64,000 nucleotides of DNA from Parafilimonas sp. GTDB lineage: Bacteria; Bacteroidota; Bacteroidia; Chitinophagales; Chitinophagaceae. A program made the position numbers and the translations under genes. Numbering within the stretch: the first letter of the stretch is position 1; every line of letters begins with the position of its first letter. A model generated the notes under the pieces. That model did no database searches. It saw only the letters and a program-made list of their open reading frames with translations, and was not told the DNA's origin. Positions 21,203 to 30,186 of this stretch are shown one piece after another. The stretch lies in the NCBI GenBank assembly GCA_017856455.1, contig JAFMEZ010000002.1, positions 24,848 through 88,847 on the forward strand. Direction: 5' to 3'.

Positions 21203-22633
21203 ATGAGAAGGAAAAAGGATACGATGATGTTGGAGTTGGAAGTTGTTGGATATGCTGCTGGAGGTAAATCGTTGGCAAAAAAAGATGGAAAAGTAATATT
21301 TATTGAAGGAGCTGTGCCTGGGGATATCGTAGATGTTAGGATAACAAAAAATAAAAAAGATTGGGCTGAAGGTACAGTCAGGAAAATACACCAATTCTCT
21401 AAAGACAGGGTCGTTCCTTTTTGTAAGCATTTTGGCGTTTGTGGGGGATGTAAATGGCAGATGTTGCCATATGAAAAGCAAGCGTTTTATAAACAGTCAG
21501 AAGTAGAGCAACATCTCAAGCGAATTGGGAAAGTTGACATACCAGAGATTCAACCAATTGCATCTGCTAAGGAAACTGTTTTTTATAGGAATAAACTGGA
21601 GTATACGTTCAGCTCCAAAAAATATTTCACTACAGATGAAATAGCTCAATTGAACTTACCTGTTGGAGAAAAAATTGGACTCCCTTCAATTCCTGCCTTG
21701 GGTTTTCATGTTCCAGGTTCGTTTGATAAGGTAATTGATATTGATGAATGTTTCTTACAGCAGGAGCCAAGCAATCAGGTTAGAAATGATCTCAGAAAAT
21801 TTGTGCTTGATAAAGGGTACAGTTTTTATGACATAAGAAATCACATTGGGTTGATGCGAAACCTGATGATAAGGAAATGTACCACAGGAGATTTAATGGT
21901 AAATGTTGTTTTTGGGGAAGATGATCGTGATGCCATTGCAGATGTAATGAAATTTTTAAGAGAGCGTTTTTCAGCAATCACTTCTCTTTATTATACTGTG
22001 AATACAAAATTCAATGACAGTATATTTGATCAGCAGCCCATCTTGTTTAGTGGTAATGCTTATGCGATAGAAAAATTAGGAAAATGGAAATTTAAAATCA
22101 GTCCTAAGTCATTTTTTCAAACCAATACAAAGCAAGCAGAGCGGCTCTATCAGATTACAAAAGATTTTACTGAATTAACGGGCAAAGAAATTGTTTATGA
22201 TTTGTACTGCGGTACAGGTAGTATTGGCATATTTGTTAGTGATCTTGCAAAAAAAATCATAGGCGTTGAGTTGATTGAAGAAGCTATAGCTGATGCTAAA
22301 GAAAATGTTTCCTTGAATCAAATTTCAAATGCATCTTTCTTTGCTGGTGATGTAGCAAATATTTGTACTGATGATTTTTTCCAAATACATGGTCGTCCAG
22401 ATGTCATCATCACAGATCCGCCGCGAGCAGGTATGCATGAAAAATTGATTCATCAGATTTTACACATGCAGGCTCCTACGGTGGTGTATGTGAGCTGTAA
22501 TCCTGCAACACAGGCCAGGGATCTCAACCTATTGTCTGAAAAATATGCGGTTACTGCCATAAAACCAGTTGACATGTTCCCGCATACACATCATATTGAA
22601 AATGTTGTTCAACTCAAGTTGAAGAGAGATTGA
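21203..22633 (+). CDS. rlmD: 23S rRNA (uracil-5-)-methyltransferase, RumA/RlmD type
   Basis: TRAM domain; 'HFGVCGGCKWQMLPYEKQ'; 'VYDLYCGTGSIGIF', 'ITDPPRAGMHEK', 'VYVSCNPATQARDL'. Confidence 0.92.
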   Translation: MRRKKDTMMLELEVVGYAAGGKSLAKKDGKVIFIEGAVPGDIVDVRITKNKKDWAEGTVRKIHQFSKDRVVPFCKHFGVCGGCKWQMLPYEKQAFYKQSEVEQHLKRIGKVDIPEIQPIASAKETVFYRNKLEYTFSSKKYFTTDEIAQLNLPVGEKIGLPSIPALGFHVPGSFDKVIDIDECFLQQEPSNQVRNDLRKFVLDKGYSFYDIRNHIGLMRNLMIRKCTTGDLMVNVVFGEDDRDAIADVMKFLRERFSAITSLYYTVNTKFNDSIFDQQPILFSGNAYAIEKLGKWKFKISPKSFFQTNTKQAERLYQITKDFTELTGKEIVYDLYCGTGSIGIFVSDLAKKIIGVELIEEAIADAKENVSLNQISNASFFAGDVANICTDDFFQIHGRPDVIITDPPRAGMHEKLIHQILHMQAPTVVYVSCNPATQARDLNLLSEKYAVTAIKPVDMFPHTHHIENVVQLKLKRD

Positions 22634-22668: not shown

Positions 22669-23364
22669 ATGGAATCAGATATAAGGCCAGGCAGGTTTCA
22701 AGTGTTGCCAGTAGTCATTAAAAATCTTCTCATCATCAATGGTCTGGTATGGCTGGCTCAAATAACCATCGGACAAGATCTGATTTCCATCGAAGATTTA
22801 TTTGCGCTTCATCATTTCAGCTCTCAGTATTACCATCCTTGGCAATACATTACCTATATGTTTCTGCATTCATCTGAATCCTTTTTTCATATCCTGTTCA
22901 ATATGTTCGCACTATGGATGTTTGGATCAACGCTGGAGAATTTATGGGGACCCGGAAGGTTCTTGATTTTTTATCTTGTTTGTGGATTGGGAGCAGGTAT
23001 TACACAAGCATTAGCACTCACGTATGACATTGCTCAGTATACCACACTTTTCGATGCAGGAAAAATATCTGCAGAGGAATTCTTTTTAATGTCTAATGTT
23101 CCAACACTTGGTGCATCAGGAGCAGTGATGGGAATATTTGCAGCATTTGCATATACTTTTCCAAATAGTCAAATGATCATCCTTCCCATTCCTTTTCCCA
23201 TCAAAGCAAAATGGGCGTTATTGGGATTAGCAGTTTTGGATCTCTTGGGTGGGATTTCTAGCAGCTCAACAGGTATTGCACACTTCGCACACCTTGGAGG
23301 TGCTGCAGTAGGTATTATCATTGTAATGATTTGGAATAGGAACAATAGAAGACATTTTTATTAA
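22669..23364 (+). CDS. Rhomboid family intramembrane serine protease
   Basis: Catalytic GASG ('PTLGASGAVMGIFAAFAY') and 'AHFAHLGGAAVG'. Confidence 0.92.
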   Translation: MESDIRPGRFQVLPVVIKNLLIINGLVWLAQITIGQDLISIEDLFALHHFSSQYYHPWQYITYMFLHSSESFFHILFNMFALWMFGSTLENLWGPGRFLIFYLVCGLGAGITQALALTYDIAQYTTLFDAGKISAEEFFLMSNVPTLGASGAVMGIFAAFAYTFPNSQMIILPIPFPIKAKWALLGLAVLDLLGGISSSSTGIAHFAHLGGAAVGIIIVMIWNRNNRRHFY

Positions 23365-23365
23365 T

Positions 23366-24271
23366 ATGGCTCCAACTTCAAGATATTATACTCCTTCTAC
23401 AAAATGGGATTCAAGTAATCCTCTGCTGATGTTGATTATTGTTCAGGCAATGTTTTTTGTGGGACTCAATTTTATAAAAAGTATTTATACATTTTCAAGA
23501 TTAGATCCGGAAGCGTTTTACCGAAATATTTATTATTGGTCAGTGCTTTCTGCTGATCATGAAACATTTCTAACAAGACCATGGACATTTTTTACGATGA
23601 TATTTTCTGAAGTGAAACTGATCATGGTTATTGGTAACTTGATTTGGACTTGGACATTTGGTTTTTTAATTCAGGATTTAGTTGGCGGAGAAAAAATATT
23701 TCCTGTTTATATATACAGCAGTTTTTTTGCGGGACTTGCCTTTATTTTGGTCACAAATGTTTTTCAAACTGAATTGGTTTCATATTCTTTTTTCAATGGG
23801 GTAACTGCTGGAATATTGGGATTGGCCAGTGCAGCGACAACCATATCTCCAAAATACCGAATCTTCCCAATGCTTGGAGGCGGGATTCCTTTATGGATCA
23901 TCGCACTCGTCTATGTATTATTAAATGTTAGTACTTCGGGAGGCTATTATTTTATTATTCCACAACTGATTGCACTATTTGTAGGATTTAGCTTTGTGCG
24001 ATTAATGCAAAATGGATATGATGCTGGTTCATGGATGATTTCTTTTTATAGTCAAATCGTGAACTTTCTCTCTCCTAAAAAAAGAAAGGAAAAGCAATCG
24101 AGACATCAATCATTCTATGATACTACTGGTCGTCAACCATTTGTAAAAAAAGCAAATCTAACACAGAAGCGTGTGGATGAGTTATTGGACAAGATTAACC
24201 AATTTGGCTATGATCATCTGACTGAAGAAGAAAAAGATTTTCTAAAGCAGGCAAGTAAAAAAGATCTTTAA
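23366..24271 (+). CDS. Rhomboid-fold protein lacking catalytic Ser/His (putative pseudoprotease) with charged C-terminal tail
   Basis: Rhomboid-like TM pattern but FNGVTAG in place of GxSG and no AHxxG; C-term 'QKRVDELLDKINQFGYDHLTEEEKDFLKQASKKDL'. Confidence 0.85.
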   Translation: MAPTSRYYTPSTKWDSSNPLLMLIIVQAMFFVGLNFIKSIYTFSRLDPEAFYRNIYYWSVLSADHETFLTRPWTFFTMIFSEVKLIMVIGNLIWTWTFGFLIQDLVGGEKIFPVYIYSSFFAGLAFILVTNVFQTELVSYSFFNGVTAGILGLASAATTISPKYRIFPMLGGGIPLWIIALVYVLLNVSTSGGYYFIIPQLIALFVGFSFVRLMQNGYDAGSWMISFYSQIVNFLSPKKRKEKQSRHQSFYDTTGRQPFVKKANLTQKRVDELLDKINQFGYDHLTEEEKDFLKQASKKDL

Positions 24272-24277
24272 GTTTCC

Positions 24278-25423
24278 ATGAAATCGACATCAGCTGGGTT
24301 ATTCAATATCATCATGAAATTTTTCTCATGGATGCTTATTGTATTTATGTTGATTTGTGCCTGTTCGCCATTCATTCATCCCAAGTATTTATGGTTCATT
24401 GGATTTTTAAGTCTCCTCTTCCCTTACATTTTTTTCTTGGTGCTTTTATTTTTAATCTATTGGCTGTTTAAGTTTTCAAGATTTTTTATTTATCCTTTTT
24501 TCGCACTCATACTATCAGCTTATTCTTTACAGTTTAATTTTTCATTTCACCAACCCAACAGTTTTGTAAAAGAAAAAGATAAACAGCATTTAAGGGTCAT
24601 GAGCTGGAATATCAGACATTTTATTCCATATAACGAGAGCAATTTTAAGCCAGTCAATAAGGATCAAATTGAAAAAGTATTTGATGAAGTTCTTTCCAAT
24701 AATCCTGATATTGTTTGCTTTCAGGAGTTTATTTCTCTTCCTAATCTTGGAACACAAAATCCATTTCATCAATTGACTAAGCAATATGGTTATACATATT
24801 TTCAATTTGATGGTGCTGATATTTTTAAATCCAATCAGTATAGCGGTACAGCTATATTTTCAAAATACCCAATCATCAATGAAGGTGTAATTCAATATCC
24901 TGATAAAAATGCTGATAATACAGAAGCGACTGTGTATGCAGATGTTGTGAAAGGGAAGGATACCATAAGGATTTATTCATTTCATTTACAGTCATTTGGT
25001 TTTGGGAATAGAGAGTATAAAATTTTGGGAACAGTTAAAAATGATCATGCTGATGTGCGTGAGTCGAAATACCTGATCAAAAAAATGAAAAACACTTTTG
25101 AAGTTCATGGCTCACAGGCGGATTTTCTTACACAAGTGTTGAAAGAATCGCCTTACCCATATATTTTGGCTGGAGACCTGAATGATGTTCCAGGATCATA
25201 TGCTTATTTGTCGGTCAGAGGCGATCATAAAGATGCTTTTCTGGAAAAAGGGTTTTTTCTAGGATCTACCTTTACAAGTTCATTCTCTTTTTTGCTTAAA
25301 AGCATCCCAACTTTACGTATTGATTATATTTTCCATCCCAACCAATTCAATACCATTCAATACAAAAGAGGTGGGGTAAATATTTCAGACCATTTTTATT
25401 TGCTGGCTGACATCCGTTTGTAG
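24278..25423 (+). CDS. Endonuclease/exonuclease/phosphatase family protein, membrane-anchored
   Basis: N-terminal TM segments; 'LRVMSWNIRHF', 'DIVCFQEF', 'ILAGDLNDVPGSYAY', 'RIDYIFHP', 'ISDHFYLLADI'. Confidence 0.92.
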   Translation: MKSTSAGLFNIIMKFFSWMLIVFMLICACSPFIHPKYLWFIGFLSLLFPYIFFLVLLFLIYWLFKFSRFFIYPFFALILSAYSLQFNFSFHQPNSFVKEKDKQHLRVMSWNIRHFIPYNESNFKPVNKDQIEKVFDEVLSNNPDIVCFQEFISLPNLGTQNPFHQLTKQYGYTYFQFDGADIFKSNQYSGTAIFSKYPIINEGVIQYPDKNADNTEATVYADVVKGKDTIRIYSFHLQSFGFGNREYKILGTVKNDHADVRESKYLIKKMKNTFEVHGSQADFLTQVLKESPYPYILAGDLNDVPGSYAYLSVRGDHKDAFLEKGFFLGSTFTSSFSFLLKSIPTLRIDYIFHPNQFNTIQYKRGGVNISDHFYLLADIRL

Positions 25424-25484: not shown

Positions 25485-26996
25485 ATGTCGACATTGCAAT
25501 TTTATAATTCGCTTACCAGAGAAAAAGAAGCATTCAAATCAATTTTACCAGGTAAAGTTGGCATGTATGTATGTGGACCAACAGTAAGTGGAGAGAGTCA
25601 CCTTGGTCATGCAAGACCTTTCATAACGTTCGACATCGTTTATAGATACCTCAAACATTTGGGTTATCAGGTTAGGTATGTTAGAAATATCACTGATGCT
25701 GGCCATTTCGAAGAAGAAGGAAGGGAGAGTGAAGACAAGATTTCCAAAAAGGCAGTATTGGAAAAAATGGAGCCCATGGAATTGGTTCAGAAGTACACCA
25801 ATCTTTTTCATTGGGCAATGAGGGCATTTAATAATCTTGAACCTAGTATTGAACCCACTGCAACTGGCCATATTGTTGAACAAATTGTGATGATTGAAAA
25901 AATCATTCAGGATGGATATGCTTATGTAGTGAATGGTTCTGTTTATTTTGATGTTGAAAAATATCATAAAGATTTTGGTGCAAAAGGAATGCAATATGGT
26001 ATTCTGAGTGGAAGGGTTTTGGAGGAACAATTGGAAACGACAAGAGAATTGGAGTCGCAGGATGAAAAAAGAAATAAAATTGATTTTGCGCTCTGGAAAA
26101 ATGCTGCTCCCGAACACATCATGCGTTGGCAAAGTCCCTGGGGAATCGGTTTCCCAGGATGGCATATTGAATGTTCTGCGATGAGTACAAAGTATTTAGG
26201 GGAAGAGTTTGATATTCATGGTGGTGGCATGGATTTACAATTCCCTCATCATGAATGTGAAATTGCGCAGAGTGCCGTATGCAATCATAAAATTCCAGCA
26301 AAGTATTGGTTGCACAATAACATGATTACCATCAACGGCAAAAAGATGGGAAAGAGTTACAACAATGTAATCAAGCTTAGTGAGCTCTTTTCAGGGACAC
26401 ATGAAATTTTAACGCAAGGGTATTCACCCATGACTGTTCGTTTCTTCATTCTTCAGACGCATTATAGAAGTACACTTGATTTTAGTAATGAAGCACTGCA
26501 GGCATCAGAAAAAGGACTAAAGAGAATGTGGGAAGCCTTTTCTTATTTGCGAAAAATGTCATTATCTCAAACTGATGCAGATGCAAGCAACATTGAATTA
26601 GAAAATAAAGTAATTGGGATCTTGAATGGTTTGGAGGAAGACATGAATGATGATCTGAACACTGCCAAGGTAATGGCTGGATTATTTGAATTGGTGCCGG
26701 TTATCAATTCTATTAAAGATGGAAAAATTGATCGTAATGCACTTTCCTCAAAGACGCTAGCGCTGATGCAAGGTCAGTTTACCACCTATTTGGTTGATAT
26801 ATTTGGACTAACTGATGAGAGCAAACAAGACGATGATAAATTGACTGCTGTCCTTCAATTGATTGGAGAAATCAGAAAAGATGCTCGCTCCAGAAAAGAT
26901 TTTGCAACATCTGATAAAATCAGGAATCAATTGTTAGCTGCCGGTATACAACTAAAAGACGAAAAGGACGGTGGAATGAGTTGGGAATTGCTTTAA
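25485..26996 (+). CDS. cysS: Cysteinyl-tRNA synthetase
   Basis: 'MYVCGPTVSGESHLGHARPFITFDIVYRYL', 'GWHIECSAMSTKYLGEEFDIHGGGMDLQFPHHECEIAQS', 'KKMGKS'. Confidence 0.97.
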   Translation: MSTLQFYNSLTREKEAFKSILPGKVGMYVCGPTVSGESHLGHARPFITFDIVYRYLKHLGYQVRYVRNITDAGHFEEEGRESEDKISKKAVLEKMEPMELVQKYTNLFHWAMRAFNNLEPSIEPTATGHIVEQIVMIEKIIQDGYAYVVNGSVYFDVEKYHKDFGAKGMQYGILSGRVLEEQLETTRELESQDEKRNKIDFALWKNAAPEHIMRWQSPWGIGFPGWHIECSAMSTKYLGEEFDIHGGGMDLQFPHHECEIAQSAVCNHKIPAKYWLHNNMITINGKKMGKSYNNVIKLSELFSGTHEILTQGYSPMTVRFFILQTHYRSTLDFSNEALQASEKGLKRMWEAFSYLRKMSLSQTDADASNIELENKVIGILNGLEEDMNDDLNTAKVMAGLFELVPVINSIKDGKIDRNALSSKTLALMQGQFTTYLVDIFGLTDESKQDDDKLTAVLQLIGEIRKDARSRKDFATSDKIRNQLLAAGIQLKDEKDGGMSWELL

Positions 26997-29185
26997 TAGC
27001 GTGCCATCCTCATTGCAAGCTCTTTTAGCTTTTCGTGATTTTTTAATCGATCGTTCATTTTTTCAAGCGACTGTTGTGAAATTGACCAGTTCATGGGAAA
27101 ATTATCAATCTCACCCTTTCCATATAAGTTAATAGTATGATATGTTGTATCACCTTTGTACAATTCAAGTAAATATTTATATAATCTTAAGTTGTTAAAA
27201 TCAGTCTGACTTGCATAAGAGCCCATAATAGTCTTTATGGGTGCAGCAAGATCGTTTACCAAAGGATGAGTTTTTCTGATTTTATTTTTATTATCCGCTT
27301 GGTTGCTGATATGAATGACATGAAAGCGAATCTTTTTAAATGCATGATTGGGGTTGATTTTTAATGAATCTGCAATCATATCATTTAAATCAAGAATCAT
27401 TTCATATACAATACCTCCTCCTGAATTATCAAAATAACCTCCATCAACAAAATATTGATCTCTGATTCTGCCTGCTGGACTGAAATAGGGGAATCTGGCG
27501 CCAAGCACAACGGCAGTTGAAAGGTTCATGGATTCATTGCCATTCAATTGTCCGAGTATATCTATTCTTTTTCCAGAGATTTCATTGTCAAATTGGATAT
27601 TGCTAATGAGTCCTGGAGTTCCATCTTGCATCCTAGTTGTGTTGATGGCAACGACCGGATCGAAAGTTTTATTCTTTGAAGATAAAATGGCACTGAGGTC
27701 ATTTTGCATAAATGAACTGATGGAATCAGTTTTATTTGTGTATTCCATCGACTTCTCCAATGCACTTGCCCTGTCGGTTGATTGTAAACCAGGAATAAAT
27801 GGTACAACAAGATCTGGGCCTAATAATCTTGCTAACGGGAAACTTAAAAAATCATTGGATAAATAAGACTGAATTTTGTTAAGCCTGTCTTTAAGTTTTT
27901 CATGCATGCTTCCGTAAAAAACTATATTACCCAAGCTTCCGCCTGATGCACCAGAGAGGCAGAACAGATTCTTGGAGAACTTAGCTTTTGACTTCTCTTC
28001 TAGTTCAGAAAGCACTGAGGCTGTCCAATATGCAGATCTTGAGGCTCCGCCATCTGCCAATACCAGATAAATAGGAAATTCATTTAGATCATTGTTGTAT
28101 AGTTCTTGCTTTCGATTCTCAATCCAATCGATAAATTTTTTACGTAGCAGCGGTCTGCTTTTATAATCAATTGTTTGTTCGGTAGATACAATACGAACGT
28201 TATGCGTTTCAACAAAATATCCAATGATCACCAAAGCTGCTAAAAATATAAAGTGAAAATTGATCTGAAGTTTAATAGACAAGAGCGACAAAATATTTCC
28301 AGCACCAAGAAGTACAGCAAATGAAATCAGGATGATGGGTAGGGGACTTACAAATCTTGCAAATGATATATCGAAAATGATATTAAAATAAATGAAAATT
28401 GCAATCAATGAGAAAAGAACAAACAACAGAAATATATTTTTTTCTGTTTGCATGGTAAGTTCTTTATTCAATTTTTCTTTTGAACTTGTTGGATCAGTAA
28501 ATATCCATGTAATCAGTTTCTTGTATTTATTCTCAGTGGATTGAAGATTAAAGTATGTTGGAAAAATATTTTGTTTGCCTGAACCACTGATCTTTCTTCT
28601 TGTAATGACCAGGTATAAATATCCAGTTTGAAGCATTGGCAAGAAGCTGATATAAGTATTCAGCTTATTAGAATAAGTCATCCACGCTATACTCGCAATA
28701 AAAACAATCCAGACAAAAATTCTGATATTTAATAAGATATTGCGCTTGCTTACATGATTAATTTTTTCAAATGCTTTATGCAGTAATACATAAGCAATCA
28801 GATGAATTACAAATATGATTGAATGTGTGAAAGCATTATCATAAGTAGGTTCTAGCGATATGAGTGAAATGAAGATAACACTGAAACACAGATAACCTAA
28901 GAGCCGGGGTGCATGATATAGCCCCTTTTTTGCAACACTGAAAAGTCTATCATGATTGTATGCAATTAATCTTGAAGTATACCAGGTAATGAGCACCCAA
29001 AAGTGCAGCGTGATAAGAAAAAACAATCCTGTTTGTTTGGACTGGAGTCCTGTTAGAATGATATCTTTTCCCTGAACGAAATCAGTAAAGAAAACATATA
29101 CAATACTGATGAGCAGTATGCTGGGGAAAAACGTTCTGCCAAGTTGGAGAATGATAGCAATCTGTTGCAATAATTTTTTGATCAT
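26993..29185 (-). CDS. Polytopic membrane protein with C-terminal patatin-like phospholipase domain
   Basis: ~330 aa TM-rich N-terminus; GxSxG-type '[10 protein letters not shown]'; '[14 protein letters not shown]' Asp dyad; start chosen at the ATG overlapping the obgE stop. Confidence 0.85.
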
Positions 29186-30186
29186 ATCCCTTCTTGCTGA
29201 TTCAGGTTTTTCCAAAGAAGGTCTTTCAATTGCTGCAGACCAGTATTGGAAACCGAAGAAATAAATACATGGGGGATATTGGATGGAAGTTCTTTTGCAA
29301 TCGCTTGTTTTAGTTCATCATCAAGCATATCACTTTTGCTTATGGCAATGATGAATTTTTTGTCAAGCAGTTCTGGATTATATTGTTCAAGTTCGTTGAG
29401 TAAAATATTCCATTCCTCTTTATGGTCTTTACTGTCTGCAGGGATGAGAAAAAGTAAAACTGGATTCCTTTCAATATGTCGAAGAAATCTATGTCCCAGT
29501 CCTTTTCCTTCCGCAGCTCCTTCTATAATACCAGGCAGGTCTGCGATACAGAATGATCTACCGTCTCGGTACTCTACCATTCCTAGTTGAGGAGTGAGTG
29601 TAGTGAATGCGTAATCTGCAATTTTGGGTTTAGCAGCTGTCATGCTAGAAAGGAGTGTTGATTTTCCAGCATTTGGAAATCCAACAAGTCCCACATCTGC
29701 CAATACTTTTAGTTCCAGAATTTTCCATCCTTCAATTCCTGGTTCACCTGGTTGAGCGTATTCTGGAGCTTGCCTGGTTGCAGTGGCAAAATTTTTATTT
29801 CCCAATCCACCTCTTCCGCCTTTTACCCAAATGAATTCCTGTCCGTCTTCCAGTATTTCAATTTCTTTTTTACCACTTTCCTCATCAACTGCGATCGTTC
29901 CAAGGGGCACTTCGATCACAATATCCTTTCCATCTTTTCCAGTCATATTGTTTTTGTTGCCACCTTGTCCGTTTTCTGCAACAACATTTTTATAATATCT
30001 CAAGTGAAGTAGCGTCCATAGGTTTTTATTTCCCCTTAGGATAATATGTCCACCTCTTCCACCGTCGCCACCATCAGGACCAGCCTGTGGGTTGAACTTT
30101 GTACGCATAAAGTGTTTGCTTCCCGCTCCGCCATGTCCACTTTTACAGAACACCCTTATCTGATCAACAAAATTTGATTTTTCCAT
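29182..30186 (-). CDS. obgE: GTPase Obg/CgtA
   Basis: '[37 protein letters not shown]', '[34 protein letters not shown]'. Confidence 0.97.

Follow-up and report, generated by a model that had tools for sequence, protein, structure and literature searches.

The locus lies within a 64,000-nucleotide stretch of DNA from Parafilimonas sp. (the window), which comes from an incomplete Chitinophagaceae genome of 1.94 Mb in 102 contigs (89% complete). Downstream of a gene for a TrmA/RumA-type RNA methyltransferase are two rhomboid-family genes, here called R1 and R2, followed by a gene for a protein with N-terminal transmembrane (TM) helices and an endonuclease/exonuclease/phosphatase (EEP) domain (Table 1). 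R1 starts with the ATG at 22669 and ends with the TAA at 23362–23364; R2 starts with the ATG at 23366 and its stop ends at 24271. A single nucleotide thus separates the two rhomboid reading frames, and the coordinates given for them in the earlier note (22669–23364 and 23366–24271) were found to be exact. The gap between R2 and the EEP gene is 6 nt, and R2 is very probably co-expressed with R1. Because the gene order, the spacing, and the loss of catalytic residues described below are repeated identically in two independent MAGs from close relatives (L165 and L166), sequencing error is excluded for R2. A third, unlinked rhomboid gene of the same genome (L002, C80) has also kept a GASG motif and the TM6 His. 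Near the cluster, on the minus strand (26996–29212), the window also encodes a patatin-like phospholipase domain protein with an N-terminal membrane region.

Table 1. Features of the R1-R2-EEP locus and degenerate DUF6576 rhomboid-like loci in other genomes. Positions refer to the window unless another locus is named.
Feature	Position	Strand	Basis
TrmA/RumA-type RNA methyltransferase	21203-22633	+	upstream neighbour of R1
R1, canonical rhomboid intramembrane serine protease (predicted), 231 aa	22669..23364	+	Pfam, alignment, AlphaFold2
R1 nucleophile Ser150 (GASG)	23116..23118	+	sequence, alignment
R1 catalytic His208 (AHFAHLGG)	23290..23292	+	sequence, alignment
R2, rhomboid pseudoprotease with C-terminal DUF6576, 301 aa	23366..24271	+	Pfam, AlphaFold2
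R2 Met87 at oxyanion-His position	23624..23626	+	alignment
R2 Thr147 replacing nucleophilic Ser (GVTA for GxSG)	23804..23806	+	alignment
R2 Gln200 replacing catalytic His	23963..23965	+	alignment
R2 DUF6576 (PF20216) region	24158..24262	+	Pfam, AlphaFold2 secondary structure
EEP, N-terminal TM helices and EEP domain	24278..25423	+	PF03372, conserved adjacency
Degenerate DUF6576 rhomboid-like locus	L134:2091-2945	-
Degenerate DUF6576 rhomboid-like locus	L109:2036-2896	-
Degenerate DUF6576 rhomboid-like locus	L133:2159-3037	+
Degenerate DUF6576 rhomboid-like locus	L111:2181-3014	+

An intact rhomboid beside one without a catalytic dyad

R1 matches the Pfam Rhomboid profile (PF01694) with 105 bits. 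In an alignment of R1, R2, and some 240 other rhomboids (245 in total), its catalytic network reads H-N-S-H, with the HxxxN motif at H74/N78 and with S150 and H208 in the GASG and AHFAHLGG motifs noted earlier. The AlphaFold2 model (pLDDT 88.9) has the six-TM fold and matches E. coli GlpG in a Foldseek search with a TMt of about 0.7. R1 is therefore predicted to be an apparently active rhomboid protease.

R2 scores 30.6 bits against the same Pfam profile, above the cut-off of 22.6, and is therefore a genuine rhomboid relative. Its model (76 homologues, mean pLDDT 85.5, pTM 0.72) has six TM helices, the helices of the L1 loop, and a cytosolic helical hairpin, which bears out the proposal that the membrane pattern has been kept. 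Foldseek placed E. coli GlpG structures at the top for this model, with TMt values of 0.72–0.76 among the best, and R1, folded as a control, returned the same GlpG matches. The catalytic-network positions of R2, on the other hand, read M-N-T-Q (M87, N91, T147, Q200), so that only the Asn is unchanged. The only His residues of R2 (65, 247, and 284) belong to loop L1 or to the cytosolic tail; neither they nor the alignment provide a Ser-His dyad elsewhere in the membrane core, an outcome that had been named in advance as evidence against the loss of the catalytic motifs. From its sequence, R2 cannot be a Ser-His protease, and the picture of an apparently active protease beside a pseudoprotease fits both proteins.

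The charged C-terminal tail noted earlier in R2 is indeed present, but it corresponds to a named Pfam domain, DUF6576 (PF20216; 34.5 bits against a curated cut-off of 27.3), modeled as a cytosolic two-helix hairpin (helices 267–280 and 287–298). Nearly all Bacteroidota genomes surveyed (383 of 396) encode the domain. By eye it resembles SHOCT, homologues of which were too few in the relatives for a profile comparison, and no paper on DUF6576 was found in the open-access literature, to which the search was confined. Stand-alone DUF6576 proteins of 81–84 aa are encoded elsewhere in a family f4 genome (L246:2604-2849).

The EEP protein matches PF03372 with 73.8 bits, and its active-site-type residues are invariant. 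Its profile matches in the PDB range from a putative EEP protein to Angel2, nocturnin, and sphingomyelinase-type and AP-endonuclease-type members, and thus predict no particular substrate.

Distribution of the tandem and of R2

Each of the 149 genomes sampled from the class has an R1 homologue, and 55 of the 61 relatives sampled have an R2 homologue. The order R1-R2-EEP, an old Bacteroidota operon, recurs in Chitinophagales and in numerous further families of both class and phylum. Exceptions to this arrangement include a genome of family f4 (L245:2806-4545) with R1-EEP but no R2, and apparently also one of family f52 (L162), where DUF6576 is absent; R2 is therefore dispensable for R1 in these lineages. 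R1-R2 tandems without a recognized adjacent EEP gene also occur, for example in family f24. A rare break of the operon was seen in family f2 (L114), in which R2 and an intact rhomboid gene are convergent rather than in tandem.

R2 thus belongs to the DUF6576 rhomboids of Bacteroidota, a phylum-wide group that was not apparent from the single locus and whose members, unlike R2 of the window, keep Ser and His in most orders. Solo DUF6576 rhomboids with GASG and His are encoded in many other families, and all 17 additional R2 loci from other families of the class have kept both residues. Among R2 proteins with Ser and His, tandem lineages mostly have GASA (53 of 68) and solo lineages GASG (32 of 37).

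In three families, the complex I gene NuoE (2Fe-2S_thioredx) has as its neighbour a second, more degenerate DUF6576-tailed rhomboid-like protein that lacks Ser and His; in a fourth, such a protein adjoins NuoC and lies 1 nt downstream of an intact rhomboid (loci in Table 1). These proteins may form a further lineage of bacterial pseudo-rhomboids, one with a link to respiratory complex I.

Recurrent loss of catalytic residues in a protein under purifying selection

Ser and/or His is absent from 92 of 204 distinct R2 proteins. Most of these losses fall in Chitinophagaceae, a family of soil- and freshwater-type bacteria, and others were found in families f3, f19, and f44/f54. R1 lies directly upstream in 86 of the 92 cases, five are at a contig edge, and one is a divergent paralogue, so that 86 of the 87 readable cases are in tandem with R1. 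The regular occurrence of R2 without R1, which the earlier note had set against its pairing of the two genes, was therefore not observed for Ser/His-less R2 apart from this paralogue. The R1-R2 spacing in the lost pairs has a median of 39 nt. Conversely, all 38 R2 proteins lacking an immediately upstream R1 keep Ser and His, and the H-N-S-H network is complete in all 153 fully readable R1 partners. We claim no significance for the association between loss and tandem, which is weak at the family level because most losses are in Chitinophagaceae.

When the catalytic columns were left out of the R2 tree, 12 state changes were needed under unordered parsimony (8–13 over 30 FastTree bootstraps) and 20 under irreversible loss (17–29 over the same number of bootstraps); these counts are estimates, since Ser and His can be regained by single substitutions. 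Loss was thus recurrent and not a single event. The residues found instead are N, T, G, A, V, or I at the Ser position and Q, V, N, E, or Y at the His position, as expected for relaxed constraint at these sites. Within the genus of the window, 31 of 33 readable R2 proteins have lost the dyad; in the remaining two, Ser and His are present but the oxyanion His is missing. Of two culturable Chitinophagaceae, Flavihumibacter fluminis (L242) has an R2 that lacks Ser and His, and Niastella yeongjuensis (L192) one in which both are retained.

The rest of the protein has fared differently. Compared with the nearest relative (L165), dN/dS was about 0.05 for R2, 0.02 for R1, and 0.05 for EEP, order-of-magnitude values given that dS was saturated in all comparisons. 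Of 57 columns conserved at 90% or more in intact Chitinophagaceae R2, 53 are kept in the lost group. The only columns below 60% there are H82, S147, D187, and H200, of which S147 and H200 partly define the two groups while H82 and D187 do not. Mean pairwise identity in the lost and intact groups was 0.75 versus 0.72 for the cytosolic TM4-TM5 loop and 0.60 versus 0.62 for DUF6576. With relaxation confined to four of 57 columns and the loop and DUF6576 equally conserved, selection holds nearly everything but the active site. R2 therefore fits the working definition of a pseudoenzyme, with catalytic residues lost and the fold under purifying selection, and the conservation pattern indicates that it is being maintained as a pseudoprotease and is not in decay. 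We regard the pseudoprotease state and its recurrent origin as almost certain. The pattern suggests that, in bacteria, rhomboid proteases are repeatedly converted into partner proteins that do not cut.

A possible adaptor function for R2

The best overall explanation, to which we give an even chance, is that R2 is a maintained pseudoprotease adaptor or receptor that serves R1 and/or FtsH-type degradation. The rhomboid fold recognizes TM helices (PMC6451368), and in R2 it may still bind transmembrane clients or destabilize them locally, with the cytosolic DUF6576 hairpin acting as a docking element that recruits or regulates a partner. Clients would then be presented for cutting to R1, the likeliest cutter, and/or membrane proteins would be passed to FtsH or a similar AAA protease. 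The precedent for the latter is YqgP of Bacillus subtilis, in which the catalytically dead S288A variant hands clients to FtsH and so acts as an adaptor without cutting (PMC7231995). The likely setting would be the quality control of membrane proteins or regulated proteolysis. An adaptor role of some form is somewhat probable, while one exercised specifically in concert with R1 falls a little short of an even chance. We propose that the R2 active site was free to drift because R1 supplies the cleavage. More tentatively, Bacteroidota may possess a two-subunit rhomboid machine in which R1 is always active and R2 has an essential non-catalytic job, its own active site being optional and discarded many times independently.

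It is also conceivable, if unlikely, that R2 works without R1 and, in the manner of a Derlin or YqgP, receives clients for FtsH or a different AAA protease, with the tandem reflecting shared regulation only. The YqgP precedent applies here equally, bacterial rhomboids remove orphan membrane-protein subunits (PMC7232013), and the conserved DUF6576 could serve as the docking module. Moreover, a Flavobacterium psychrophilum rhomboid gene that may be R1, R2, or another rhomboid (THC0290_2103) has an SM4 alternative-sigma promoter and falls in the expression cluster of clpB; the same promoter class holds groESL, lon, dnaK, grpE-dnaJ, and htpG (PMC9723704). Divergent DUF6576 pseudo-rhomboids outside any R1 tandem speak against an R1-specific role. 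By itself, however, an independent receptor leaves unexplained why tandem-type R2 without Ser and His is virtually always beside an intact R1. Inherited synteny could account for this, as the operon is older than the losses and the R1-R2 linkage may merely have been retained. We consider it quite improbable that R2 is instead a scaffold or chaperone for the membrane-anchored EEP protein, with R1 incidental. An EEP gene accompanies 84 of the 92 R2 genes with losses, at a median of 9 nt downstream of R2, and the EEP active-site-type residues are invariant, but R1-EEP survives without R2 in family f4 and apparently f52, and R1-R2 tandems lack a recognized adjacent EEP gene in f24, for instance.

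Two further readings concern the state of R2 itself. Loss of R2 in at least one family (L245) and its faster evolution than R1 (78% versus 94% identity to the nearest relative) might point to a dispensable duplicate heading for loss. This is very improbable: every one of the 33 readable genomes of the window's genus, the 31 dyad-less ones included, has an open, full-length R2, the low dN/dS and the 53 retained columns argue against it, and the EEP protein, apparently an intact enzyme, has changed equally fast (74% identity). Outright pseudogene decay of R2 is ruled out by the conservation pattern and dN/dS. That R2 still cuts, with Thr147 or a different residue as nucleophile, is scarcely credible even though a Thr does sit at the nucleophile position and about half of the lost homologues retain His200, since R2 of the window has Gln in place of the base and no membrane-core His, and the other replacements in the clade (N, G, A, V, I) are mostly unable to act as nucleophiles.

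Comparison with known rhomboid systems

In the open-access literature covered by our search, neither a rhomboid pseudoprotease lineage in bacteria nor the Bacteroidota R1-R2 tandem operon was found to be described. There, rhomboid pseudoproteases are eukaryotic families, and in bacteria a pseudoprotease function is described only for a catalytically competent rhomboid. How those with known roles, the iRhoms and Derlins, arose from proteases is hinted at only by YqgP. In R2, active and inactive versions coexist in close relatives, in the same operon and beside a constant active partner, which makes both the transition from protease to pseudoprotease and the non-catalytic job directly testable in this clade. 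R2 genes of this family that were named rhomboid proteases by homology are probably misnamed.

Among characterized proteins, GlpG and Rhom7 of Enterobacteriaceae are of the same kind as R1, and the orphan subunits they police would be a plausible substrate class; both, however, are active, and a pseudoprotease partner has been described for neither. iRhoms resemble R2 in being pseudoproteases that coexist with active rhomboids, and the R2 model matches their fold weakly. They are defined by seven TM helices, a Pro before the lost Ser, and a large iRhom homology domain (PMC6451368), whereas the R2 model has six TM helices, V146 precedes T147, and neither the Pfam scan nor the AlphaFold2 model contains an iRhom homology domain. 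Derlins, which act in ERAD, share with R2 a rhomboid fold without catalytic residues, but the match of the R2 model to chain 7y4w_W of the human ERAD retro-translocation complex is weak (TMt 0.50, E 0.37), and no DER1 (PF04511) match was found in R2 by Pfam scan up to E = 1. iRhom and Derlin rank far behind GlpG in the Foldseek search, and R2 is bacterial, from a Bacteroidota protease lineage. The analogy drawn earlier with iRhoms and derlins therefore holds for the presumed mode of action and not for membership: R2 would work like them but belongs to neither family. The closest parallel is YqgP, a bacterial rhomboid with an experimentally demonstrated non-catalytic adaptor function that needs an extra cytosolic domain (PMC7231995). 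In YqgP, which has retained the Ser-His dyad, a single protein performs both functions, whereas here they would be split over two genes, with the C-terminal DUF6576 of R2 as the extra domain. If the two-subunit machine is real, it would be a bacterial counterpart of the route that led from rhomboid protease to iRhom and Derlin.
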